64,000 nucleotides of DNA from Bradyrhizobiaceae bacterium (lineage in GTDB: Bacteria > Pseudomonadota > Alphaproteobacteria > Rhizobiales > Xanthobacteraceae): positions 688,574-752,573 of the forward strand of contig CP078014.1 of the NCBI GenBank assembly GCA_020544565.1. Reading direction: 5' to 3'. A program made the translations under genes and the position numbers. The notes beneath the pieces were generated by a model. The model worked only from the letters and a program-made list of their open reading frames with translations, was not told where the DNA came from and did not search any database. This document shows positions 18,458 through 59,720 of this stretch, piece after piece; the first letter of the stretch is position 1; each line of letters begins with the position of its first letter.

Positions 18458-18655
18458 ATGGCCAAGGCCGCAACCAAAACCATCAAGGTCGAGCAGACCG
18501 GCAGCCCGATCCGCCGCCACAGCTCGCAGCGCGAGACCCTGATCGGTCTGCGCCTCAACAAGATCGGCCGCGTTTCCGAGCTGGAGGATTCGCCTGCGGT
18601 TCGCGGCATGATCGCCAAGGTTCAGCACCTCGTTCGCGTCGTGGACGGGAAGTAA
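18458..18655 (+). CDS. rpmD: 50S ribosomal protein L30
   Basis: uL30, 65 aa, binds 23S rRNA in the large subunit. The core [20 protein letters not shown] and [14 protein letters not shown] is complete. This is the housekeeping copy. Its sequence is closely mirrored by the N-terminal domain of a much larger island protein encoded at 51770-52747 (37 identical of 55 aligned residues). Confidence 0.97.
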
Positions 18656-43893: not shown

Positions 43894-44005
43894 GGCCGTC
43901 CTGAGGCTTGAGGTTTCCAGGGGGGACTCGAAAACCTGCCGATAAGCCCGGTTTTGCGATGTTTCCGGGGTTGCGAGGTGGCCACGGCTCGCGTATTCCG
44001 TCCCC

Positions 44006-45601
44006 ATGACAGCACACAGCCAGACCGCCTCCGTGACGCCTGACCGGGCGGGCGCGCACGAAAAGATTCTGATCGTCGATTTCGGCTCTCAGGTGACGCA
44101 ACTGATCGCGCGCCGCGTCCGCGAGGAGGGCGTCTATTCCGAGATCGTTCCGTTCCAGAAGGCCGAAGCCGCGTTTCGCGCCATGAAGCCGCAGGCCGTG
44201 ATCCTGTCCGGCGGCCCGGCCTCGGTGCTCGACGACGATGCGCCGTCCGCGCCGATGGCGATCCTGACCGCGGGCGTGCCGGTACTCGGCATCTGTTACG
44301 GCGAGCAGACCATGGCCAAGCAGCTCGGCGGCACCGTGGAGGCGGGGCACCATCGCGAGTTCGGCCGCGCGCTGATCGAGGTGACCGACGATTGCGCGCT
44401 GTTCCACGATCTCTGGAAGGTCGGCGACAAGCATTTCGTCTGGATGAGCCACGGCGATCGCGTGACGAAATTGCCGGACGGCTTTCGCGCCGTCGCCAGG
44501 GCGCCGGGCTCGCCGATTTCGGTGATCGCGGACGACAAGCGCAAGTTCTACGCCATGCAGTTTCACCCCGAGGTGGTGCATACGCCGGATGGCGCCAAGC
44601 TGATCCACAATTTCGTGCGCAGGGTCGCGGGGCTGAAGGGCGATTGGACCATGCGCGCCTTCCGCGAGGAAGCGGTCGAGAAAATCCGCGCGCAGGTTGG
44701 CAAAGGCAAGGTGATCTGCGGCCTCTCGGGCGGCGTCGATTCCTCCGTCGCGGCCATTCTCATTCACGAGGCCATTGGCGATCAGCTCACCTGTGTGTTC
44801 GTCGATCACGGCATGCTGCGCAAGGACGAGGCCAAGACCGTCGTCGATCTGTTCCGCCATCACTACAACATCCCGCTGGTGCATGTGGATGCCTCCGCCA
44901 CCTTCCTCGGCGAGCTCGACGGCGTCACCGACCCGGAGGTGAAGCGCAAGACCATCGGCCGCCTGTTCATCGACGTGTTCGAGGCCGAGGCGAAGAAGAT
45001 TGGGGGCGCGGATTTCCTCGCCCAGGGCACGCTTTATCCTGACGTGATCGAGAGCGTGTCGTTCACCGGCGGTCCGTCGGTGACGATCAAGTCGCACCAC
45101 AACGTCGGCGGGCTGCCGGCGCGCATGAACATGAAGCTGGTGGAGCCGCTGCGCGAACTGTTCAAGGATGAGGTGCGCGCGCTCGGCCGCGAGCTCGGCT
45201 TGCCGGAGGTGTTCGTCGGCCGCCATCCGTTCCCGGGGCCGGGGCTCGCGATCCGTTGCCCGGGCGAGATCACCCGCGACAAGCTCAACATCCTGCGCGA
45301 GGCCGATGCGGTCTACATCGACCAGATCCGCAAGGCGGGTCTTTACGACACGATCTGGCAGGCGTTCGCCGTGCTGCTGCCGGTGAAGACCGTGGGCGTG
45401 ATGGGCGATGGGCGCACTTACGAATACGTGGTCGGCCTGCGCGCGGTGACATCCACTGACGGCATGACGGCGGACTACTATCCGTTCGACATGAAATTCC
45501 TCGGCGAAACCGCAACCCGCATCATCAACGAGGTGAGGGGCGTCAACCGCGTGGTCTATGACGTGACCAGCAAACCGCCGGGGACGATCGAGTGGGAATA
45601 A
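44006..45601 (+). CDS. guaA: GMP synthase (glutamine-hydrolysing)
   Basis: 531 aa, converts XMP to GMP using glutamine and ATP. The amidotransferase half has Cys97 in GICYGEQTM and MQFHPEV; the ATP-pyrophosphatase half has the P-loop [11 protein letters not shown]; the C-terminal dimerisation domain ends in [11 protein letters not shown]. The complete C-terminus is regenerated although a foreign island begins right after it, as expected when integration uses the 3' end of the gene as attachment site. Confidence 0.97.
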
Positions 45602-45605
45602 TCCG
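45570..45605 (+). other. probable island attachment site (attL) at the guaA 3' end
   Basis: guaA 3' ends are known integration sites of one group of genomic islands with tyrosine integrases. Here the integrase gene starts 314 bases after the guaA stop, and everything downstream has accessory content. The exact core cannot be fixed because the right junction, which should repeat part of this sequence, is outside the window. Confidence 0.5.
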
Positions 45606-45915: not shown

Positions 45916-47220
45916 ATGCTTACCGACATCGCGCTTAAACAACTGAAGCCACAGCAGAAATTGTACAAGGTCGCAGACCGTGACGGTATGTACGCGGCAG
46001 TGGCGCCCTCAGGTCATATCACTTTCCGATTTGACTACCGTCTCGCCGGCCGCCGGGAAACCTTGACCATCGGGCGCTACGGAGCTGGCGGGGTGTCCCT
46101 CGCTAAGGCTCGCGAGCAATGTCTCAAAGCAAGGCAGGCGGTCGAGGAGGGACGTTCGCCGGCTCAGCAAAAGCAGCGGGACAAGCGCCGGATCGCGGCG
46201 GGCGAAACCTTCGGCGCCATCTCTAAACGATGGCTCAAAGAAGCCCCGATGGCCGATAGCACCCGCGCCATGCGTAAGTCGATTTTCGATCGCGACATCT
46301 ATCCTATCTGGAAGAGCCGACGCCTTGACGAGATAACGCCCGATGATCTTCGCGCACAGTGCATCAAGGTCAAAGATCGTGGCGCACCGGCTACCGCCAT
46401 CCATGTGCGCGACATCGTCAAGCAGATTTACGCCTTCGCCATCCTCCACGGCGAGAAGATCGCCAACCCCGCCAACGAGGTCGGGCCGGCCTCCATCGCG
46501 ACCTTCACGTCGAAGGACCGGGCACTTTCCCCGTCCGAGATCCGGATTGCGCTAGCAGAGGTCGAGCACGTGCCGACGCTGCCGACCATCCGGCTCGGTC
46601 TTCGATTCATTTTGCTGACGATGGTGCGCAAGAGCGAATTGCTGGATGCCGTATGGGATGAGGTTGATTTTGAGAATGCGGTCTGGAGCATCCCCAAGGA
46701 GAGAATGAAGCGGCGGAAGCCTCACAATGTCTACCTATCGCGCCAATCGCTCGACATCATGGTCGCGCTGAAGACCTGCGCCGGAAATTCCCGTTACGTT
46801 CTGCCGTCGCGCTACGATGCCGACGCGCCGATGTCTCGTGCCACCTTTAACCGGATTACGACCGCGATCGCGGAACGTGCCAAGGCGAAAGGGCTTCCGT
46901 TGGAGCCTTTCACCGTCCATGACCTGCGCCGCACCGGCTCGACGTTGCTCAATGAGCTCGGGTTTAATCGCGATTGGATCGAGAAATGTCTCGCCCACGA
47001 AGAGGGCCGTGGCTCGCGCGGCGTTTACAACAAGGCCGAATATGAGCAGCAACGCCGGCACATGCTGCAGGAGTGGGCGGATATGATCGACGCCTGGACG
47101 AAGGGCGGGAGCCACACCCCGACGCTCTTTCCGCCATCCATGCGGGCGATCGCACCTGACGTCATTGCCTCACCCGCCGGTTCTTCCGCAACCGGACGTC
47201 GGGGGCGGGAGCTCGCTTGA
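45916..47220 (+). CDS. tyrosine-type site-specific integrase (P4 type)
   Basis: 434 aa. An N-terminal DUF4102-like arm-binding domain (LTDIALKQLKPQQKLYKVADRDGMY), a SAM-like core-binding domain (about 95-195) and the catalytic domain follow. Catalytic residues are visible: Arg238 in TMVRKSELL, Lys in KERMKRRKPH, His335 and Arg338 in VHDLRRTGS, His361 in CLAHEE and Tyr371 in GVYNKAEY. It is full length and next to guaA, so it is the likely enzyme that inserted the island. The 3' end overlaps the opposing AlpA-like gene by 59 bases. Confidence 0.93.
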   Translation: MLTDIALKQLKPQQKLYKVADRDGMYAAVAPSGHITFRFDYRLAGRRETLTIGRYGAGGVSLAKAREQCLKARQAVEEGRSPAQQKQRDKRRIAAGETFGAISKRWLKEAPMADSTRAMRKSIFDRDIYPIWKSRRLDEITPDDLRAQCIKVKDRGAPATAIHVRDIVKQIYAFAILHGEKIANPANEVGPASIATFTSKDRALSPSEIRIALAEVEHVPTLPTIRLGLRFILLTMVRKSELLDAVWDEVDFENAVWSIPKERMKRRKPHNVYLSRQSLDIMVALKTCAGNSRYVLPSRYDADAPMSRATFNRITTAIAERAKAKGLPLEPFTVHDLRRTGSTLLNELGFNRDWIEKCLAHEEGRGSRGVYNKAEYEQQRRHMLQEWADMIDAWTKGGSHTPTLFPPSMRAIAPDVIASPAGSSATGRRGRELA

Positions 47221-47852: not shown

Positions 47853-48809
47853 ATGAGCTTGTTCGACAACGCTATCGAGTCGATCCAGATCGGCGTCGAG
47901 GATCTTCTGCGAAACGACGACCGTCGCGTTCTGTCGGCCGTTCGCAATGTTCACGCTGGCGCGTTGCTGCTTTGCAAGGAGAAGCTGCGCCGGCTGTCAC
48001 CCGGGGACGAGATTCTTCTGGCGCAACGTTTCGAGCCGCAGCGGAATGACAAGGGCGACGTTTCAATCGAAGGCGTAGGCCGCAATACCGTCGGCCTCGA
48101 AGACATTAAGAAGCGCTTTAAAACTTTCGACGTCGCATTCGATTGGAAGCGTTTCGACGGGATCGCGGAAATCCGCCACCACATGGAGCATTCCTATTTC
48201 AAAGGAACACGAGAGCGAGCGCGGCAAGCGGTCGCCGATGCGTTTATGGTCATTCGCCAGCTTCTCGTCGAGGCATTGAAGGAGGATCCGCTGAAAGTGC
48301 TCGGACCCGAATGCTGGAACGCGCTTCTGGAAAATGCCGACCTATTCGAAGCCGAATTGCAAGCCTGTCGAAAGACGCTAGACAATGTTGCATGGGAAAC
48401 GGACGCCGCGGTGCGCGCGCTTCCTGACTTCATCTGCCCCTCGTGCAGATCGTCTTTGGTCCGACAGCGTGAGCCGGGCAATTCGGCCCAGTTGGACGTG
48501 GTTCTTCTTTGCGCAGCATGCGGTACGGAAACAGAGCTTGGACCCGTCTTGACATTAGCTTTCGACGAGACCTTTGGCGGCGAAGCCCACATCGCCATTA
48601 AAGATGGCGGTGATCCGCCGATCTCGACATGTCCGGAATGCAGCGAAGAGACCTATGTGATCGAGGAGAGTAGGTGCGCCGCCTGCGACTTCGTTGTTCC
48701 GACTGACGCGACCTGCGCAATCTGCGGCAGCGGCCTTAGCGCTGAAGACTATTGCGAGCACGATGGATTATGCGGGTATCACGCATATGTCGCCGCCAAA
48801 GATGACTAG
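47853..48809 (+). CDS. HEPN-like protein with C-terminal zinc knuckles, unknown function
   Basis: 318 aa, no named family recognised. The helical N-terminal part (1-150) holds RHHMEH (Arg108 to His113), an RX4H arrangement like the catalytic motif of HEPN ribonucleases. The C-terminal part has six Cys pairs or near-pairs (195/198, 220/223, 260/263, 275/278, 288/291, 301/307), enough for three zinc ribbons. Combination suggests an RNA- or protein-binding nuclease, but activity is inference. Its last base abuts the last base of the minus-strand gene, so the two genes converge with no gap. Confidence 0.6.
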   Translation: MSLFDNAIESIQIGVEDLLRNDDRRVLSAVRNVHAGALLLCKEKLRRLSPGDEILLAQRFEPQRNDKGDVSIEGVGRNTVGLEDIKKRFKTFDVAFDWKRFDGIAEIRHHMEHSYFKGTRERARQAVADAFMVIRQLLVEALKEDPLKVLGPECWNALLENADLFEAELQACRKTLDNVAWETDAAVRALPDFICPSCRSSLVRQREPGNSAQLDVVLLCAACGTETELGPVLTLAFDETFGGEAHIAIKDGGDPPISTCPECSEETYVIEESRCAACDFVVPTDATCAICGSGLSAEDYCEHDGLCGYHAYVAAKDD

Positions 48810-49595: not shown

Positions 49596-49695
49596 GTCGC
49601 CTTCCTTCAACGCCTCTGAACGGGCTTGGCTGCTATCGCGATAGGATCGAGAAATGATGGCCCATGAAGAGGGCACTTCGCGCAAGACGACGGAG

Positions 49696-50574
49696 CTACG
49701 AACCTCCCTTCGTCTGCTTTTTCCGGGCCGCCTTTGTGATGCGCTTTGCGTTTCTTGCGTCCTCGGTCAGTTTAGAAAGCCCTTCGATCGCCTCGCAGTT
49801 CTCAGGGTTGTTGATGCGGTAGGCGTGCTTTGCACCGAGCTTCTCGAACTGCTCGATCGCGGCAACGTATTGCTCGTGAATCCAAAGATATTTCGAGAGC
49901 ACGCCGGGATCCGTCTTCGCAAGGCCGCGCTTTAGTATGATGCCAATATCGCGCAGGTAGAGCGGATAGTTGTCGTCATCCATTCCTACGATTTCAACCA
50001 CCGACTTCCACGACACGTAGTTGAGGTAGTGGTGCCCGTCTTCATCCTTGGTCATGAAGTTTCGCACATAGTCCGCTTCGTGCTTTCCATCATGCTGCTC
50101 TGCATGAGCCTTACGCGCGATCGAAACCAGCTTGCGGTCGATCAGCACGCGTGGGGTCCTCGCGAGCTTGGATTCCATCTCATATGCCGTCACCATCGCC
50201 GGGCCGACCAAATAGCGTGTCGTATGGACCAGGTCTCCGACGGTGACAGCGCCACGCACCAGATAGCCCTGGATCGCAAGGTCGATGACCGCAAAAGCTA
50301 TGTCGTTGAGGAGATAGAACACGGCCGACTGCTCGTGGATTGCATACGACAACACCACGGAATCGGAAAAGGTGGTGATGCTTCGTGTCTTGTAGAGATC
50401 CGCATCCTCTTGGCCGATGTCATACAACCGATCAATCGCTTTCAGGAGGGATTGCAGTTTTTCATCATCGCGGACTGTGTTCTCGACGATCTCTTTAAAG
50501 CCAAGGAAGTCGAGAAACAGAATGATCCTTCGTTCGTATTCTCGCTTCAGTGTCTGCTTTTTCCGCTTCGCCAT
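49696..50574 (-). CDS. class III nucleotidyl-cyclase-like protein
   Basis: 292 aa from ATG 50574 (GGGGGA upstream). ILFLDFLGFKEIV has Asp22 where cyclases hold the first metal, and TTFSDSVVLSY has Asp71 where the second metal aspartate sits. RGAVTVGDLVHTTRYLVGPAMVTAYEMESK follows the pattern RIGxxxGxVV...GxxVNxAxRLE of class III cyclases. However, the Asn-Arg pair that stabilises the transition state is not evident, so catalysis may be altered or lost. It sits 43 bases after the HNH gene. Signalling-linked defence is possible, not shown. Confidence 0.55.
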   Translation of the reverse strand: MAKRKKQTLKREYERRIILFLDFLGFKEIVENTVRDDEKLQSLLKAIDRLYDIGQEDADLYKTRSITTFSDSVVLSYAIHEQSAVFYLLNDIAFAVIDLAIQGYLVRGAVTVGDLVHTTRYLVGPAMVTAYEMESKLARTPRVLIDRKLVSIARKAHAEQHDGKHEADYVRNFMTKDEDGHHYLNYVSWKSVVEIVGMDDDNYPLYLRDIGIILKRGLAKTDPGVLSKYLWIHEQYVAAIEQFEKLGAKHAYRINNPENCEAIEGLSKLTEDARNAKRITKAARKKQTKGGS

Positions 50575-50617
50575 AATTACGAGTCCCCCGTTGTGCGGCT
50601 TGTAGCCGCCATAAATC

Positions 50618-51709
50618 TCAAGATGCTGGAACGTTTGGCGGCAAAGGTATGAAACTTCTTTCGATAAATTTACCATCGTCATTGAAAAGAACTGTGAAGA
50701 GACCGTCGTCGATGGCCTTCTCGACCTCTTGCGCAGACTTACCGGCAGCTTGCAAATGATCGATCCGGTCGCCCAGCGCTTGCCGCAAGAGCGCGCCTCT
50801 CATTGCATAGTCAAGATCGCCGAGTTCAAACTGATCGGACAGCACGGCGCGTTCTGTGAGAGTTTCGTTCAGCAGATCGCACTCGGTGTGGAATCGTGGC
50901 CGTTCCTTCAGGCTCAGATTCATAAATGCGAAATCGACCATGACCTCCCGGGTCTGAATTTCTGAGAGAGCGCCTCCGATCCGCTCAAGTCGCGGCATCG
51001 CCCCCTGAAGCGCTCCGCCGGCGTCATTGAAAGTTGTTATCAGAACAACGTCGCCAAGCCTCAACAGCATCGTTTGGGCCGCAAACAGGTCTGCGTAATC
51101 GAATTCGTCAAGCGACCCTTCGCTTTTCGCGGCAAACGCGCCGAGTGAGCCAAACACGTCCTTGTCGAGATGTGCGCCGTTTACGAAGCAGCGGACGATA
51201 CAGTGGATGTGATGCAATGTTTCCCAGTCGTAAAGATCGCCGATCTTGTCGTCCGGCTGCCGGCGATCGCGTTCGATACGGAAGTCGCGATCCTTCAAAT
51301 GCGTCTTGAGAAAGATCAGGCCGAGCCACACGAAGAATTCGAGGGAGTTTCCATTCGCAATATGATCTCGGACCGCTTGCGGGCCGGAATTGACCACGGC
51401 GCTGATGCGCTGCTCGATCTGGAGTCCCATGAGTGAGTTACATTCTTCGCAGCAAGGAACCTTGTATCTGCTGTATTTGATCGTCGTTCCATTTGGAAGC
51501 GTGAGCGTCCTGTCAAACAGATTGAACTTCCGCAAGACCCAGTCGGGTATGACGTGTTCATCGTTAAAGGGCTTCGAGCCGGGCTGTGCCCCACATATGA
51601 AGCAGCAATGGCCGAGACAGATGTCGTTCACAAATCGGTCTTTGCTGAAAAACAGAACCTTGCCGGTGCTGTCGAGAAATGATCCGTCCGGGGTCTTTGA
51701 CCAAGCCAT
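50618..51709 (-). CDS. HNH-endonuclease-like protein
   Basis: About 363 aa from ATG 51709; an in-frame ATG at 51727 is an alternative and neither has a strong ribosome-binding site. The N-terminal 100 residues hold CFICG, DEHVIPDWV and CCEECNSLMG: two zinc Cys pairs (36/39, 87/90) round the putative catalytic His52, with Asn91, as in HNH nucleases. The rest (100-363) is not recognised. It lies in the same minus-strand run as the L30-nuclease fusion. Confidence 0.65.
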   Translation of the reverse strand: MAWSKTPDGSFLDSTGKVLFFSKDRFVNDICLGHCCFICGAQPGSKPFNDEHVIPDWVLRKFNLFDRTLTLPNGTTIKYSRYKVPCCEECNSLMGLQIEQRISAVVNSGPQAVRDHIANGNSLEFFVWLGLIFLKTHLKDRDFRIERDRRQPDDKIGDLYDWETLHHIHCIVRCFVNGAHLDKDVFGSLGAFAAKSEGSLDEFDYADLFAAQTMLLRLGDVVLITTFNDAGGALQGAMPRLERIGGALSEIQTREVMVDFAFMNLSLKERPRFHTECDLLNETLTERAVLSDQFELGDLDYAMRGALLRQALGDRIDHLQAAGKSAQEVEKAIDDGLFTVLFNDDGKFIERSFIPLPPNVPAS

Positions 51710-51769
51710 GATGAAAGCAAATCCCATTGACGTATGAAGGAAGACGAGCCCTTGCCCGCAAGGGCGTAT

Positions 51770-52747
51770 CTAGCGTCCGCGACCGAATGCCGGACCTCTT
51801 ATTGGGAAAGTAAGGCCTGACCGTCGCGCCTGTTCAAAGGGACGCTGAAGCCACGCAAAATGATCGACATTTCGTTTGAGCTCGATCGTCTTCTTCTCGA
51901 TATGATCTTTCTCCATCGGGCCGAACGGATCGTCCGCCCGATGTCGCCCGAGATGGTAGAAGTCGGCCCAATCCTCGAGATTTGACTTCCGCCAGGCAAA
52001 ACCATTGCCGCAGAAGACGAGGACGCCAGGTCCCGGTCGAATTGCTTTGGCGGCGGCGAGGCGCTCCTCAAAGTCCATGGTGTATTCAAGGAAGTGAGAG
52101 CGTGAGGCGAAGGCGTCGCCGTAGATGGCGCCGCCCATCTGTTGAGGATTTACAATGAACTCGACATTCTCCGGATGATATTTCTTTCGTTTCTCGAACT
52201 TGCTGTAAGCCTCCCGTGTCGCCTTGGTCTTCGGCCGCACCGTCTTCACCTCGACGTACAGATTGTCCCTGCCGCGATCGACCACGAAATCGATCCTGCG
52301 CCCGTCGGGCAGCAGGTCAGGCTCGTATTCGATCCGCGCCGCCTGCAGAGCCGGGTCGTCGACGAGAACCTTGGCGACAGATAGTTCGTTGACAACCTCG
52401 AGCAATCGCCGGTCGCGCTTGCCATGCGAGGCATGATATTCGGCCACCGCGGCCTCAAACTGATCCCAAAGAACATTGCCGCGGACGACGCGGCTTCCTT
52501 GCCCGATCAGGATGTCCCGGTATTCCGCCGTGACCTCCGCGGCGAAAGCATCGAGTTCGCTCGTCGCATAGACGACGCGAATGAGATGGCCGACCTTCGC
52601 GATCATGCCACGGGTGGCCGGTGTGTCGGGCAGCTCTATAAACCGGCCAATGCGGTTTAGTCCGAGCCCGATCAAAGTTGCTCTTTGATCGCCGGGACGT
52701 CGGATCGGGCTACGGATTTGTTCGATGGTGAGCGTGGCTGGCGGCAT
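51770..52747 (-). CDS. ribosomal protein L30 domain fused to a PD-(D/E)XK-like nuclease
   Basis: About 325 aa from ATG 52747 (ATG 52777 is an in-frame alternative; no strong ribosome-binding site at either). Residues 4-59 are an L30 domain: SPIRR, TLIGL, RGMIAKV and HLIRVV match the housekeeping rpmD product in the same window at 37 of 55 positions, without gaps. A helical linker follows (60-145). Then comes [20 protein letters not shown], with Asp153, Glu166 and Lys168 in the D-Xn-EXK spacing of restriction-type nucleases. Codon choice in the L30 part is unlike rpmD, so it is not a recent local copy. The function of the fusion is unknown; targeting to ribosomes or 23S rRNA is a hypothesis. 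Confidence 0.8.
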
Positions 52748-52795
52748 GGCAGAACTCTGGGCTGCCGAGCATAGCATGATCGGGCTATATCGTTG

Positions 52796-53497
52796 TTATT
52801 TTAGAGTATCGCCGCGGTCTTCCTTTTCGCTGCCGCGCATCACTTCGGCAAGTGACGAAGCGGCCAGGGGACGCTGCAACTGGGACGCCTCATCCCACGG
52901 AGCGCGCATCCATACATCCCATTCCTGCTTGGTTGTCAGGATCACAGGCATCGCTTTGGCATGAACGGACGCGACGATGCTGTTGGGCTCGCAGGTGAGG
53001 AAGCCGTAAACGAGGTGCTTGCCGTCGATCGGATTGGATTTGGTGCCGCGCGCGCCTTCCCATTCGGACCAGATTCCGGCAAAGGCGAAGAGCGGCCGCG
53101 AGGGATTAAGCGCGAACCAGACGACGTCCTTCTTTCCGGCCATCGGGTGAGGCGACCCGTCAATGTTCTTCAGCGATTTCGAATTGGCCTTGTCATTATA
53201 TTCCGAAAAGCTCGTCGCCGGCACGAGGCAGCGGTTCTCGGGCTTGGTCCAGCGCCGCCAATGCGGCGAGGCGAGGTTGCGGATGTTGGTGCTGATGCCG
53301 CCGAATTTCGGCGGGTTCGGCATGCCCCAGCGCATCTTGATCAATTCGCGAGCGCTATCGGGGCCGCGAACGACTGGCGCCTCCCAGTCGGGAAACACCG
53401 CCGGCATGCTCGGCAGATTGCCGACGCTGTCTTTCAGGACGCCGAACAGCGCCCGGATCGCCTCTTGGTTGGTGGTGATACTGTAGAGATTACACAT
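52796..53497 (-). CDS. SOS-response-associated peptidase (SRAP/HMCES/YedK) family protein
   Basis: 233 aa from ATG 53497, giving [10 protein letters not shown] with the essential Cys2 exposed once Met is removed. The family's other active-site residues are visible: Asn in TNIRNLA (about 71-74), Glu99 in SFSEY and His179 in [14 protein letters not shown] proteins cross-link to abasic sites in single-stranded DNA to protect them. First gene of the minus-strand run; the L30-nuclease gene starts 48 bases after its stop. Confidence 0.9.
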
Positions 53498-53641
53498 GAT
53501 GCCCTGGATAGCCGACCCCCGCCCATATTGGCCGGGGTCAGCCGTGCCGCCAACCTCATAGGGCGGCGACGGGAACCCGCTGGATTTCACAAGCGATTTC
53601 AAAGCCAAAATATGCCGGTTGACTCCGGTCCGAACTTTATC

Positions 53642-53656
53642 GTTCTCTATTTGTTC
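53642..53656 (+). promoter_or_regulatory. LexA box (GTTC-N7-GTTC)
   Basis: GTTCTCTATTTGTTC is an exact match to the alphaproteobacterial SOS box. It lies 33 bases before the degenerate SRAP gene that leads imuA-imuB-dnaE2, and 145 bases upstream of the divergent SRAP gene. DNA-damage control of the mutagenesis cassette is well known in this class. Confidence 0.8.
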
Positions 53657-53688
53657 TAATCGCATCTGGGAGTGGTGAGATCGCGTGG

Positions 53689-54267
53689 ATGGGTGGCGCA
53701 GAGAACCAATCATGTCGTGAGACCGGCACCGTTATGCGCAGCGGCGCGCCCGCGCAGGTGCTGCCGGTGTTTCGCCGTCACCCAGAAACCGGCGAGCCGG
53801 CCGAAGGCGAGTTGCGCTGGGGTCTCATCCCGCATTACGCCGATGCGCGACCCCACATTCAGCCAATCCATGCGCGCGCCGAGACCATCACCGAACAGCG
53901 GATGTTCCGCGACGCCTACCGCAAACGACGCTGCATCGTCCCGATGACCGGATTCAATCTGAAAGATCAGAACGGCAAACGTCGCGTTATCAGCCGCATC
54001 GACGGCGCGCCCTTCGGTGTCGCCGGCATCTGGGAAAACTGGAAAGACCCGCTGACCAGCCGCTGGGAGCGCACTTTCGCAATCATCACCGTGCCGGCCA
54101 ACAAGTTGATCGCACCGGTGCATGATCGGATGCCGGCCATTCTGCACAATAGCGATTTTAGGCGTTGGATCGGACCCGAAGACGATCCGCACGATCTTCT
54201 CGTTCCCTATGCCGGGGACGATCTCGTTGTCTCGCCGCCCGCAGGAAAATCGCGGCGGCGGCCATGA
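53689..54267 (+). CDS. degenerate SRAP-family protein (lacks catalytic N-terminus)
   Basis: 192 aa as read. [38 protein letters not shown] and VHDRMPAIL are clear SRAP (YedK-type) segments. But there is no MCGR start with the essential Cys2, the usual PINARAE reads PIHARAE, and GFYEW reads GFNLK, losing the Glu. It is therefore truncated or inactive. Real translation may start at ATG 53734. It overlaps imuA by four bases, so it may persist for translational coupling. Confidence 0.65.
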
Positions 54268-55019
54268 TCGATAACACGGCGATCGTCGACCGGCTTCGCG
54301 AACGCATCGCGTCGCTCGAGACAAGCCCTACGCGTGATCGCCAGGTGCTGCCGTTCGGCATCGACTTGCTCGATCGCGTGCTGCCGGGAGGAGGGTTGGC
54401 TCTCGGCGCGCTGCATGAAGTGGCCGGTGGCGGCAACGGCGCCATCCATGGCGCTGCCGCAGCGCTGTTTGCCGCCGGCATCGCCGCCCGCAGTCACGGA
54501 CAAATCCTGTGGTGCGTGACGCGACCGGATTTGTTCGCTCCGGCGCTGGCGCAGGCCGGTCTGGCGCCGGACCGCGTCATCTATGTCGAGGCTGGCGACG
54601 ACAAGGCCGTGCTCGCCTGTTTTGAGGAAGGGCTACGGCATGGCGGCTTGGGCGCTGTGGTCGCCGAGGTCGCTCGGCTGTCGATGACGGCTTCGCGGCG
54701 ATTGCAGCTTTCGGCCGAAAGCTCCGGAACGCTGGGCGTCGCCATTCGGCGCTGGCGACGCCAGACCGAGGCGGCGGATTTCGGACAACCCACCGCCGCC
54801 GTGACCCGCTGGCGTGTGACGGCGCTGCCGTCGTCGCCGTTGCCGGTGCCGGGCATCGGACGCGCCCGCTGGCACATCGAATTGATCCGTTGCCGCGCCG
54901 GAGACAGCGCGGAGTTTGAGTTGGAAGCGTGTGATGCCCAGGGTCGTCTCTCTGTTTCTTCCGACGTGGCCGACCGACCGGGTGCGAAGGATCACGAACG
55001 GCGCTTCGCCGTCCGGTGA
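54264..55019 (+). CDS. imuA: ImuA, RecA-like component of the ImuABC mutasome
   Basis: 251 aa from ATG 54264, which overlaps the SRAP-like stop (ATGA). VLPFGIDLLDRVLPGGGLALGALHEVAG begins a RecA/SulA-like fold without a full ATPase P-loop, as in ImuA proteins. Overlaps imuB by about 86 bases. In relatives ImuA stimulates error-prone translesion synthesis with ImuB and DnaE2. Confidence 0.9.
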   Translation: MIDNTAIVDRLRERIASLETSPTRDRQVLPFGIDLLDRVLPGGGLALGALHEVAGGGNGAIHGAAAALFAAGIAARSHGQILWCVTRPDLFAPALAQAGLAPDRVIYVEAGDDKAVLACFEEGLRHGGLGAVVAEVARLSMTASRRLQLSAESSGTLGVAIRRWRRQTEAADFGQPTAAVTRWRVTALPSSPLPVPGIGRARWHIELIRCRAGDSAEFELEACDAQGRLSVSSDVADRPGAKDHERRFAVR

Positions 55020-56454
55020 AACGCCGCTCGTCTTGGTCGGCCGTGACGGGACGCGGCGGGTGGTGCTGGCTGCGGATGCGGCGGCGCGCGCCGCGGGGTT
55101 ACGGGTCGGGATGCCGGCGACCAAGGCCCAGGCGTTGGTACCGGGTCTTGTCGTGCAGGACGCCGAGCCCGCGGCGGATGCCGCGGCGCTGGAGCGTCTC
55201 GCGGTCTGGGCGCTGCGCTACGCGCCGGTCGTTGCCGCCGATCCGGCCGACGGGCTCGTCATCGACGCCAGCGGCGCGGTGCATCTGCACGGCGGCGAGA
55301 CCGCCATGCTCGCAGACATGATCGGCCGGCTCGCGGGCTCTCGCATTTCTGCGCGGGCCGCGATGGCCGACACCTGGGGCGCGGCGTATGCGCTCGCTCG
55401 TTTTGTGGCGCGACCAGCGATCGTGATTCCGCCGGGCGCCAGTGTTGCCGCGATCCTGCCGCTGCCGATCGCGGCGCTGCGTTTGCCGATCGATATGGTG
55501 GACAGTCTGCGCCGGCTCGGCTTCGATCGCGTCAGTGATCTGATGGACAAGCCGCGCGCGCCGCTCGCGCTGCGCTTCGGTCCCGAGCTCGGCCGCCGCC
55601 TCGATCACGCCACCGGCCAGCGCGCCCAGCCGATCGATCCGGTGCGGCCACCTGATGTCGTCGAGATCCGGCGCGGGTTTGCCGAGCCGATCGGCGCCGC
55701 CGAAACGCTGGCGCGCTACACCGGCAAGCTCGTCGTCCAGCTCTGTGAAGCGCTGGAGGCGAGGGGCCTCGGCGCGCGGCGGCTCGATCTTCTGTTTCAT
55801 CGCACCGACGGCCGCATCGCCGCGATCCGCATCGGCACCGCCAAACCAGTGCGCGATGTAAAGCGTCTGACGCGATTACTCTGCGACAAGATTGAGACGG
55901 TCGATCCGGGCTTCGGCATCGAGATCATGAGTCTGGCGGCGACGCTCGCTGAGCCGTTCCAGGCCAAACAGGGCGTCTCGTCCCTGACCGAGGAGACGGT
56001 TGCCGACATCTCCGGCCTGATCGATACGCTATCCAATCGCATCGGCGGCGAGCGGCTCTATCGTATCGCGCCAGTCGCGAGCGACGTCCCGGAACGGTCG
56101 GTCGGCCGTGTGGCGCCGACCGCGCCGCCAACCGGGGAGGGCTGGCTTCAGCACTGGCCGCGGCCGTCGCGCCTGTTCGCGCCACCCGAGCCGATCGAGA
56201 CCCTGGCGCTGTTGCCCGATCATCCGCCGGTCAGCTTCACCTGGCGTGGCATCCGCCGCCGGGTAAAGCGTGCCGACGGACCCGAACGCGTGTTCGGCGA
56301 ATGGTGGAAGCGCGACGCCGAACTGATCGCCGTGCGCGATTATTTCCAGGTCGAGGATGATGCCGGCGAACGGTTCTGGATCTTCCGCGCTGGTGACGGT
56401 GAGGATGCCGCAACCGGCTCGCAGCGCTGGTTCCTGCACGGCATCTTCGCATGA
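54934..56454 (+). CDS. imuB: ImuB, Y-family polymerase-like protein
   Basis: 506 aa from ATG 54934 ([17 protein letters not shown]); GTG 54931 or TTG 54916 are possible. It has the DinB-like fold ([43 protein letters not shown]) but lacks the catalytic acidic set of active Y-family polymerases, typical of ImuB, which acts as a scaffold that binds the clamp. Ends four bases into dnaE2. Confidence 0.9.
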
Positions 56455-59400
56455 GCGGCGTGCGCTACAGCGAATTGCAGGTGACGTCGCATTTCTCGTT
56501 TTTGCGCGGCGCCAGTTCCTGCGAGGAGTTGTTCGCGCAAGCGGCGATGCTCAGCATCGAGGCGCTCGCGATCGTCGATCGTAATTCGCTGGCCGGTATC
56601 GTGCGCGCCCATGAGGCGGCGAAAGTCACCGGCGTCAGGTTGATCGTCGGCTGCCGTCTCGATCTGACGGATGGCATGTCGCTGCTGGTCTATCCGACCG
56701 ATCGACCCGCTTACGCGCGGCTGTGCCGACTGCTCTCGCTCGGCAAGAAGCGCGGCGGCAAGGCCCAATGTCATCTCGATTGGGATGATGTTGTCGCCTA
56801 CGGCGACGGTCTGGTCGCGGTGCTGGTGCCCGATGAGGCTGACGATACCTGCGCGCTACGGCTGCGCCGTCTGCTCGAGGCATTCGGCGATCGCGCCTAT
56901 CTGGCGTTGACGCTGCGGCGGCGCCCGAACGACGCGCTGCGGCTGCATGAGCTGTCGAACCTCGCGTCGCGGGCGCGGGTGCCGACCCTCGTCACCAACG
57001 ACGCGCTGTTTCATGTGCCGGCACGCCGCCTGCTGCAGGATGTCGTCACCTGCATTCGCCACAACGTCACCATCGACGATGCGGGATTCCGCCGCGAGCG
57101 CCATGCCGACCGCTATCTTAAAGCCCCTGAAGAAATGGCGCGGCTGTTTGCGCGCTATCCCGAGGCATTGGCGCGGATCACCGAGATCACCGGGCGCTGT
57201 CGTTTTTCGCTCGATGAGCTGGCCTATCAATATCCGGAAGAGCGCAGCCTGCCGGGGCTGACGCCGCAGCAGGCGCTGGAGAAGCTGACCTGGGAGGGCG
57301 CTATCGAACGCTATCCTGAGGGATTGCCCGACAAAGTCAGCGCGTCGCTCGCACATGAACTGCGGCTGATCGAGAAGCTCGAATACGCGCCGTACTTTCT
57401 GACCGTGAATGCCATCGTCCGCTTCGCCCGCAGCCAGGACATCCTCTGTCAGGGCCGCGGCTCGGCCGCCAACAGCGCGGTCTGCTACGTGCTTGGCGTT
57501 ACCTCGATCGATCCTGACCGCAACGACCTATTGTTTGAGCGCTTCGTCTCCGAGGAGCGCCGCGAGCCGCCGGACATCGACGTCGATTTCGAGCACGAGC
57601 GGCGCGAGATCGTCATGCAGTGGGTGTTCGAAACCTATGGCCGCGATCATGCGGCGCTGTGCTCGACCGTGATCCGTTACCGATCGAAAGGCGCATTGCG
57701 CGATGTCGGCAAGGCGCTGGGTCTGCCCGAAGATCTGATCAAGATGCTGGCGTCGCAGGTCTCCGGCTGGCACCGCGACGGCATCGAACCGCAGCATGCG
57801 GAAGATCTCAATCTCAATATCGGCGATCGGCGGTTGCGACTGGCGCTGGACCTGGCGCGCAACCTGATCGGCGCGCCGCGGCATCTGTCGCAGCATCCCG
57901 GCGGCTTCGTCCTGACCCACGACCGGCTCGACGAGTTGGTGCCGATCGAGCCCGCCGCAATGCCCGATCGCCAGGTCATCGAATGGGACAAGGACGACAT
58001 CGACGCGCTGCGCTTCATGAAGGTCGATTGCCTGGCGCTCGGGATGTTGAGCTGCATGAAGCGCGGCCTCGATCTCCTGGCCGAGCACAAGGGCACCAGG
58101 CTCGACCTCGCCACCATCCCGGCCGAAGACCCGCGCACCTACGCCATGATCCGCAAGGCCGATACGCTCGGCACCTTCCAGATCGAGAGCCGGGCGCAGA
58201 TGTCGATGCTGCCGCGGATCAAGCCGCGCACCTTCTACGATCTCGTCATCGAAGTAGCGATCGTCCGTCCCGGCCCGATCCAGGGCGACATGGTGCATCC
58301 GTACTTAAGACGCCGGGAAGGCAAGGAGGCGGTGGTCTATCCCAAGCCGGAGTTGGAAAAGGTGCTGGGCAAGACGCTCGGCGTGCCGCTGTTCCAGGAA
58401 CAGGCGATGCGGGTCGCAATCGAATGCGCTGGTTTTACGCCAGGCGAGGCCGATCAGTTGCGCCGCGCTATGGCGACCTTCAAGCACACCGGCGGCGTCT
58501 CCAAGTTCGGCGAGAAGCTGATCGGCGGCATGGTGGCCAATGGTTACACCCGGGAATTCGCCGAGCAGACGTTTCGGCAACTGGAGGGCTTCGGCAGTTA
58601 TGGCTTTCCGGAATCACACGCGGCTTCTTTCGCGCTGATCGCCTACGCCTCGTCCTGGCTGAAATGCCATCACCCCGATGTGTTCTGCGCCGCGCTCCTG
58701 AACGCACAGCCGATGGGATTCTACGCGCCGGCGCAGATCGTGCGCGATGCGCGCGATCACGGCGTCGAGGTCCGGCCGGTCTGCATCAACGCCTCGCGCT
58801 GGGACTGCACGCTGGAGCCGGCCGATGATGAGGATCGCTTCGCGGTCCGGCTCGGCCTGCGCATGGTCAAGGGTCTCGCCAATGCCGATGCGGCGTCGAT
58901 CATCGCCGTGCGCGCCGACCGGCCGTTCGCCTCGGTCGATGACCTGTGGCAGCGCGCCCGCGTGCCGGCGGCCTCGCTGGTCGAGATCGCTGACGCCGAT
59001 GGATTCCGATCCTGTTTGCATCTCGCCCGCCGCGAGGCGCTGTGGGCGATCAAGGCGCTGCGTGACGAACCGCTGCCGTTGTTTGCGGCTGCTGCCGCCC
59101 GCGCGATGGCGATAGTCCCCGAAATCATCGAGCCGCCCGTGGCGCTGCGGCCGATGACGGCGGGCGGCGAGGTAGTCGAGGATTACGGCCATGTCGGACT
59201 GACCCTGCGGGGCCACCCGCTATCGTTCCTCCGCGACGATCTGCGGCGCCGGCGCATCGTCACATGTTCGGAAGCCATGGCGGCGCGCGATGGCCGGTGG
59301 CTCGAAACTGCCGGTCTCGTGCTGGTGCGGCAGATGCCGGGATCGGCCAAGGGCGTGCTGTTCGTCACCATCGAAGACGAAACCGGCATTGCCAACCTCG

Positions 59401-59720
59401 TGGTCTGGCCGCGGGTGTTCGAACGGCAGCGCCGTGTCATCCTCGGTGCAAGCATGATCGGTGTGCAGGGCCGGATTCAGCGCGAAGGCGAGGTGGTGCA
59501 TCTCGTCGCCCGGCAGCTCACCGACCTGTCGCCGGAACTGGCCAGCGTCGGCGATCGCGATACGGCGTTTCCGGTGCCGCACGGTCGGGGCGATGAATTC
59601 CATCACGGCGCCCCCAGCCTCGATCCCCGCAGCTTGCCCAAAGGACCGAAACCGCGCGACATCGAAGATTCTTATCGTCACCTCGATCAGATCAGGGTGA
59701 AGACGCGGGATTTTCGGTAG
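56451..59720 (+). CDS. dnaE2: error-prone DNA polymerase III alpha subunit DnaE2
   Basis: 1,089 aa. N-terminal PHP domain ([18 protein letters not shown]), then the C-family palm with [12 protein letters not shown] near residue 374-385 as catalytic aspartates, and the finger and thumb segments [14 protein letters not shown] and [28 protein letters not shown]. The C-terminal OB-fold region contains [24 protein letters not shown] overlap with imuB. With ImuA and ImuB it carries out SOS mutagenesis. Confidence 0.95.

Follow-up and report, generated by a model that had tools for sequence, protein, structure and literature searches.

An open reading frame on the minus strand of a Bradyrhizobiaceae genome raises two questions: whether a complete ribosomal protein L30 is really joined to a nuclease in one protein, and what such a protein would do on a mobile element. 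The frame lies in a window of 64,000 nucleotides (the whole stretch of DNA analysed, to which all positions refer) from contig CP078014.1. A preliminary description of this DNA, made from the sequence, had presented it as L30 fused to a PD-(D/E)XK-like nuclease in a genomic island.

The fused gene and its reading frame

51770-52747, minus strand: L30-nuclease fusion gene, a single open frame of 325 aa (335 aa if the start is the ATG at 52777)
52571-52735, minus strand: uL30 domain, residues 5-59, recognised by profiles, BLASTP and predicted fold
51773-52567, minus strand: PD-(D/E)XK-like nuclease domain, residues 61-325, recognised by stand-alone homologues, predicted fold and conserved residues

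The coordinates 51770-52747 proposed for the gene are correct, it is coded on the minus strand, and the frame is uninterrupted. It runs through 325 residues without a stop, and at the junction, where a frameshift between the halves had been a worry, there is none. An in-frame ATG at 52777 would lengthen the protein by 10 residues. Between residues 48 and 101 there is no ATG, GTG or TTG codon, so that a complete nuclease domain is made only with all of L30 or, from the ATG at residue 48, with its last part. When the whole protein was searched against its own genome (one contig, 4.13 Mb), two places were recovered, the fusion and rpmD. The presence of L30 and a nuclease-like domain in one frame was borne out, with an intact L30 domain and a PD-(D/E)XK-like core, and the fusion is a real, intact and so far unique architecture joining two known kinds of domain.

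The L30 half

18458-18655, plus strand: host rpmD, ordinary L30 given for comparison, between the S5 and L15 genes

Residues 5-59 of the fusion and 8-62 of host RpmD were aligned by BLASTP without gaps, with 37 of 55 residues identical (E 4e-22), which reproduces the 37/55 gapless matches counted earlier. Profile PF00327 (cut-off 23) scored 62.8 bits in the fusion, against 65.0 in host rpmD, and was matched over positions 2-51 of 51; the NCBIfam profile TIGR01308 scored 70.8 bits (cut-off 44.65) over positions 1-54 of 55. The L30 fold, on which the preliminary description had let its proposal depend, is present in the predicted model, as residues 4-60 match L30 chain 8ceu_y of a 50S subunit with Z 12.3 and 0.7 Å over 57 residues. 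The fusion thus has the full uL30/RpmD domain, above the cut-offs of both profiles and with the same predicted fold. It differs from uL30/RpmD in being a second copy outside the S5-L30-L15 cluster and in carrying 266 further residues, where about 100 other L30 frames have at most 8. Since host rpmD lies between the S5 and L15 genes, the fusion is the second L30 copy; the place in the ribosomal protein cluster is held by the ordinary rpmD and not by the fusion, which sits in an island beside guaA.

Twenty-two bona fide L30s, drawn from the better-matching ones, have 23 positions conserved in at least 95%, and 21 of these are kept in the fused L30; at the other two it has I for V and R for K. 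The fused domain departs from the majority at 12 positions, and these mostly spare the conserved ones, on which 2 of the 12 lie (hypergeometric P 0.039). As far as its sequence tells, it bears no signs of decay, and the constraint may predate the fusion.

The DNA of the fused L30 is identical to that of rpmD at 107 of 165 bases (65%), with dS about 2.0 and dN about 0.27. Third-position GC is 0.65 in the fused L30 and 0.68 in the nuclease half, against 0.87 in rpmD. The argument from codon use made earlier holds, as the value of the fused L30 matches that of the nuclease half and not that of rpmD. Because both halves have it in common, they have been in one genome for some time, and the fusion is not brand new. 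In an L30 tree of 72 rows and 56 columns, the 27 genus L30s included formed a starred group (100/99) with the fusion outside. The fusion paired weakly (89/84) with L055, from another family of the order, and because of this weak support no donor is named. Its branch is long (0.82), its residue make-up is unlike that of the alignment, and the place of so long a row was flagged as unsure. Median L30 identity within the genus is 84%, while the fusion is 64% identical to the genus L30s and 65% to others. The proposal that the fused L30 is not a recent local duplication is supported by the dS and by the position outside the genus clade. A recent duplication of host rpmD was rejected on the 107/165 identity, the saturated synonymous change and the place outside the genus group.

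The nuclease half and its relatives

52385-52387, minus strand: E121, helix glutamate of motif NEL, invariant in 10 of 10 aligned members
52289-52291, minus strand: D153, motif IDF, invariant in 10 of 10
52250-52252, minus strand: E166, motif (E/D)xK, E in 6 of 10 and D in 4 of 10
52244-52246, minus strand: K168, motif (E/D)xK, invariant in 10 of 10

Conservation of residues was counted in alignment A4, which holds ten intact members including the fusion; the broken relative L050 was left out of A3 and A4. Residues D153, E166 and K168, singled out earlier as a nuclease motif, are at the positions given for them, with D153 and K168 invariant and E or D at 166 in the ten members. The D...(E/D)xK motif together with a helix glutamate, by which the PD-(D/E)XK superfamily is recognised, was found in all ten. 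Also invariant in the 10-row alignment are R216, D259, G267, R270, D272 and D273, and the family has an extra conserved motif at the C-terminus, around LED and GxHRxDDPF.

Ten relatives of the nuclease half were found, one of them broken (L050), and none of the ten carries L30. The nine intact relatives have frames of 256-295 residues from stop to stop, with no space for L30 beside the nuclease match, and no L30 was detected in the stretches retrieved around the relatives. The closest one, L004, is 52-54% identical and is a complete protein without L30. Judged from sequence comparison, residues 61-325 make up a complete member of a sparse nuclease-like family that has no name.

Neither Pfam nor NCBIfam gave a match above the curated cut-off on the nuclease half of the fusion, and no Pfam model exceeded its cut-off on the family members. 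The SfsA RE domain (PF03749) reached 19 bits in the fusion, below the cut-off of 22.8, over positions 21-56 of 138, and 3 of 10 members matched it at E up to 1 (best 0.0026). With PADLOC, no model was better than E 0.01 on the nuclease members, HEC-02B (0.013) and PDC-S01 (0.017) being the best, each in 1 of 10. The fusion protein matched phrog_5018 (unknown function) weakly at 0.0015, and neither this match nor its weak ones to PDC/HEC models were used. A search of PDB sequences with the profile of the nuclease family returned nothing better than E 0.15. A Peptidase_M24_C match in two of the ten members (best 0.0015) was taken as chance.

The full fusion was modelled in AlphaFold2 with a mean pLDDT of 87.5 and pTM of 0.79 on alignment A3, in which the relatives' first residues are wrongly set against L30, an error that mainly touches the junction. 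In this model, no flexible linker separates the last L30 strand (56-61) from the first nuclease helix (62-81), into which it passes straight. The nuclease modelled alone on the properly aligned A4 reached pLDDT 89.6 and pTM 0.89 and has the same first helix; the arrangement of the domains is less sure than either domain, as the pTM of the whole compared with that of the nuclease alone indicates. The best matches of the nuclease model in VIA-align were CdiA-CT 4g6v (Z 9.0, 3.6 Å, 132 residues), the XisH-type proteins 2okf (Z 8.5, 3.0 Å) and 2inb (Z 8.2, 3.1 Å), PaqCI (Z 7.5) and Can2 (Z 7.3), with McrC, SfsA and restriction enzymes lower, and acetyl-CoA carboxylase rows, surely unrelated, reached Z 5.4-5.8 on the same scale. 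We take 4g6v CdiA-CT, XisH 2okf and 2inb, PaqCI, Can2, SfsA and McrC to have the PD-(D/E)XK fold. Foldseek returned no match to the nuclease model at E 0.001 or better, the best row being SfsA at 0.041. No weight was given to a family's being missing from the fold lists. A nuclease core, the second element on which the preliminary description had let its proposal depend, is predicted, with a moderate match (best Z 9.0) and with the conserved residues. The PD-(D/E)XK-like assignment of this half is well supported by the fold list of the predicted model together with the conserved residues. With the superfamily it shares the predicted core with E121, D153 and E/D166-x-K168, and the structural matches to the proteins just named have Z 5.7 to 9.0; it differs in reaching no Pfam or NCBIfam cut-off and in its extra C-terminal motif.

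Chosen neighbouring genes were scanned at six of the relatives, L004, L006, L007, L040, L046 and L049. Within 5 kb, HicA/HicB genes were found at L049, PemK and PIN genes at L046, and TIR genes at L006 and L007; the contig of L006 also has a resolvase-type recombinase. No toxin- or TIR-type gene was found among the two neighbours scanned at L004 (a membrane-type ORF and ribonucleotide reductase) and the one at L040. Directly upstream of the relative that begins at 1453 in L006, a 201-aa protein is coded at 851-1456 on the plus strand; its CHAT match is weak (E 0.14, 12 bits, cut-off 24). Counted with its stop, this gene shares 4 bases with the start of the nuclease, suggesting that the two form one unit.

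Searches for other fusions and further relatives

Among the matches listed for the class set, 70 of 71 L30 domains are followed by at most 6 residues, and the fusion by 266. In the family of genome G327, tails of at most 8 residues were counted at 32 further L30 loci, in a survey that leaves out six frames of 162-233 residues; two large tail values in that set are partial second matches, the proper L30 ending 3 residues before the stop. Long L30 open frames extend upstream and not downstream in all regions retrieved, which were 15 from the class set (13 picked for frame length and 2 for the double L30 of G632), 20 from the G327 family and two more. In the G327 family, 111 of 119 genomes matched the fusion, all in the L30 part save two that cross the stop into the next gene. 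The longest alignments of that family, in G1428 (3-151) and G1385 (3-88), cross a stop and were rejected as ordinary L30s.

In the genus of the fusion, 27 of 29 genomes matched it, the nuclease part being matched in its own genome only. At the level of the family, 2 of 248 genomes matched the nuclease (its own and that of L004), at that of the order 1 of 397 (its own) and at that of the phylum 2 of 398 (its own and that of L011). In the class, 6 of 385 genomes matched at E up to 0.001, namely its own, L006, L007 and L008-L010, the last three with 19-23 bits only, in frames of 408-713 residues, and not counted as relatives. In the genus of G066, the nuclease was matched in 1 of 18 genomes, G066 itself. 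Relatives L006, L007 and L011 were found with a two-row profile. A degenerate motif scan of the contigs of 84,980 species gave 16 stretches, of which 7 are members of the family by profile; one of these 7, L047, apparently lies on the contig of L006, the two contigs being equally long.

The related-locus search with the nuclease returned nothing in species contigs or viral contigs, the same search with L30 returned nothing in viral contigs, and neither did the nuclease motif scan of viral contigs; since the search patterns were narrow, these empty results argue only weakly for absence. The whole protein in tblastn matched 9 plasmid and 3 phage records, all in the L30 part only, and L004 and L049 used as queries against plasmids and phages gave no match. 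No L30-nuclease fusion was evident in the titles and abstract beginnings of open-licence literature among the matches listed.

The island and its genes

44000-45601, plus strand: guaA (GMP synthase), GMP_synt_C 4.4e-43; start coordinate approximate, stop at 45599-45601
45916-47217, plus strand: phage-type integrase of the island, PF00589 3.5e-21 and PF13356 3.2e-19
47853-48809, plus strand: homologue of the PADLOC defence candidate PDC-S64, 4.9e-44
49696-50682, minus strand: ORF of 328 aa, unknown function, overlapping the HNH-like ORF, phrog_23933 6.4e-29
50618-51727, minus strand: downstream ORF of 369 aa, HNH_5-like, PF14279 23.5 bits, below the cut-off of 27.5
52796-53713, minus strand: SRAP-domain ORF upstream of the fusion, PF02586 2.1e-19

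The DNA of guaA was matched in all 29 genomes of the genus, and in 24 of the 28 others the similarity ends at 45597-45603; from this comparison of sequences, we set the left border of the island at the 3' end of guaA. From about 45.5 to 54 kb, GC content in 500-base windows is 0.50-0.64, against 0.63-0.73 in the DNA flanking that interval. The break at the end of guaA, the integrase and the lower GC agree with the genomic island proposed earlier. A right border was looked for and not found in the window, which is also without tRNA and Rfam matches. At 54211 the end of guaA is repeated over 13 bases; the repeat does not extend and was taken as chance.

Among seven nearby proteins, PADLOC made one strong match only, that to the candidate PDC-S64. 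For the ORF at 49696-50682, Pfam returned nothing at E values as high as 1; the motifs of this ORF, in our view, resemble class III nucleotide cyclases. No sigma-70-like promoter site was found in 49600-53900. The stop of the SRAP-domain ORF is separated from the ATG at 52777 by 18 bases, and the real start of this ORF is probably nearer 53500, since its profile match begins at residue 73.

It stands head to head with a second SRAP-domain ORF on the plus strand (53689-54267). Of the profile, this second ORF covers only the part from position 36 on, as if its N-terminus had been lost, perhaps where the island ends on the right. An imuB-like ORF (IMS domain) follows within 54916-59720 on the plus strand and after it an ORF of 1089 residues, presumably DnaE2. 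Three of the 28 other genomes of the genus match the DNA at 53700-56400 along some 2 kb.

As in islands integrated at guaA, which is mentioned as an integration site in the literature, the integrase lies next to the 3' end of guaA. Genome G188, of the same genus, has a 70% similar integrase beside guaA (L112 4339-5814), and the rest of the 7.8 kb there has no match to the island described here.

Possible role and alternatives

Nucleases that hit translation are common weapons. The likeliest role of the fusion, put forward tentatively, is that of a mobile-element nuclease docked by L30 on 23S rRNA or 50S particles, for which we infer docking, activity and target. On this view, a PD-(D/E)XK-like nuclease from a rare family, in origin a stand-alone protein, would have been joined to a complete, foreign uL30 gene. 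The fused L30 would still bind its 23S rRNA site, competing with host L30, most likely while the 50S is being assembled, and this docking would hold the nuclease on ribosomal particles. There it could cut rRNA, tRNA, mRNA or invading DNA during infection or stress, which would make it a defence or element-maintenance effector.

A docked nuclease is favoured by the L30 domain, which is complete, has an ordinary score and keeps its conserved positions, by the lack of a start codon between residues 48 and 101, and by the candidate catalytic residues kept in the ten aligned members together with the fold matches. It is favoured too by the island with its integrase and PDC-S64 homologue and by the toxin-antitoxin or TIR genes near four relatives. 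The entry of phage proteins into ribosomes points the same way: phage-encoded bS21 and bL12 are reported to be incorporated in 70S ribosomes in E. coli, in a study that also speaks of an eS30 of retroviral origin joined to a ubiquitin-like domain (PMC6375957). Like the fusion, phage bS21 and bL12 are copies of ribosomal proteins on mobile elements; no nuclease fusion is described in the passages of that article on these proteins, and its main text has no occurrence of uL30. Many bacteria are reported to lack L30, which is also linked to ribosome heterogeneity (PMC4014445); elsewhere it is described as often missing, yet an rpmD-like gene is taken as probably essential in minimal sets (PMC9035817). 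In the solved ribosome of T. kodakarensis, chain 6skf_Ba is an L30 of 155 residues with its L30 match at 3-54; such a long C-terminal extension on L30 can thus be tolerated.

Against docking on finished ribosomes, L30 is not among the readily exchanged ribosomal proteins bS21, bL12, bL9, bL31 and bL33 in the list given in PMC6375957. Viral HPF, in that study, was not incorporated. Several results speak against docking more generally: the relatives evidently work without L30, the L30 branch is long, with a constraint that may date from before the fusion, the structural match of the nuclease is moderate and without a Foldseek match at E 0.001, and the possible internal start at ATG 48 would give a nuclease without the whole of L30. 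As the fusion is known from one gene and none of its ten relatives has L30, no selection on the joint architecture is seen, and no conservation of the fusion backs any functional idea, including the three of the preliminary description (a nuclease placed on the 50S, an L30 mimic sensed at phage shut-off, regulation by binding rRNA).

A fusion in which the nuclease acts alone on foreign DNA or RNA, and in which L30 was recombined in and serves at most as a leader for folding or expression, is nearly as likely as the docked nuclease. It agrees with the absence of L30 from all 10 relatives, including the full-length L004, and with the single L30-nuclease gene in all searches. A merely passive L30 is harder to reconcile with a domain that is complete, without stop or frameshift, and that keeps 21 of 23 conserved positions despite its long branch; the gap in start codons between residues 48 and 101 and the third-position GC shared by the halves, by which the fusion is not brand new, count against it as well.

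It is unlikely that L30 is a sensor gauging ribosome assembly, the nuclease being inactive while docked on nascent 50S or 23S rRNA and active when freed by a halt of rRNA synthesis or assembly, as at phage shut-off. In the predicted model, the direct passage of strand 56-61 into helix 62-81 could let docking block or orient the active site, and the PDC-S64 homologue in the island and the toxin-antitoxin or TIR genes near some relatives would suit such a trigger; the arrangement of the domains on which this depends is less sure (pTM 0.79, against 0.89 for the nuclease alone) and comes from A3, with the first residues of the relatives misplaced on L30. Slightly less probable again is a decaying or newly formed chance chimera without function, as would befit a singleton with a long L30 branch in an island of lower GC, since the frame is intact, the candidate catalytic residues and conserved L30 positions are kept and the halves match in composition. 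An assembly artefact, for which nothing speaks beyond the singleton status, is very improbable in a single-contig genome with no frameshift at the junction and with a composition common to both halves, and an assembler could not have joined the local copy, the fused L30 being only 65% identical to rpmD in DNA.

Returning to the docked nuclease, L30 might be an aiming module that replaces host L30 in new 50S particles (or senses their absence), with the nuclease delivered to or released from the translation machinery, which we regard as possible and rather doubtful. We know of no description of a ribosome-targeted or ribosome-gated nuclease of such kind. If this were true, the element could steer its nuclease to the ribosome or have it triggered by ribosome assembly. 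The nuclease family itself, to which no Pfam model corresponds above cut-off, recurs in several proteobacterial lineages according to record titles.
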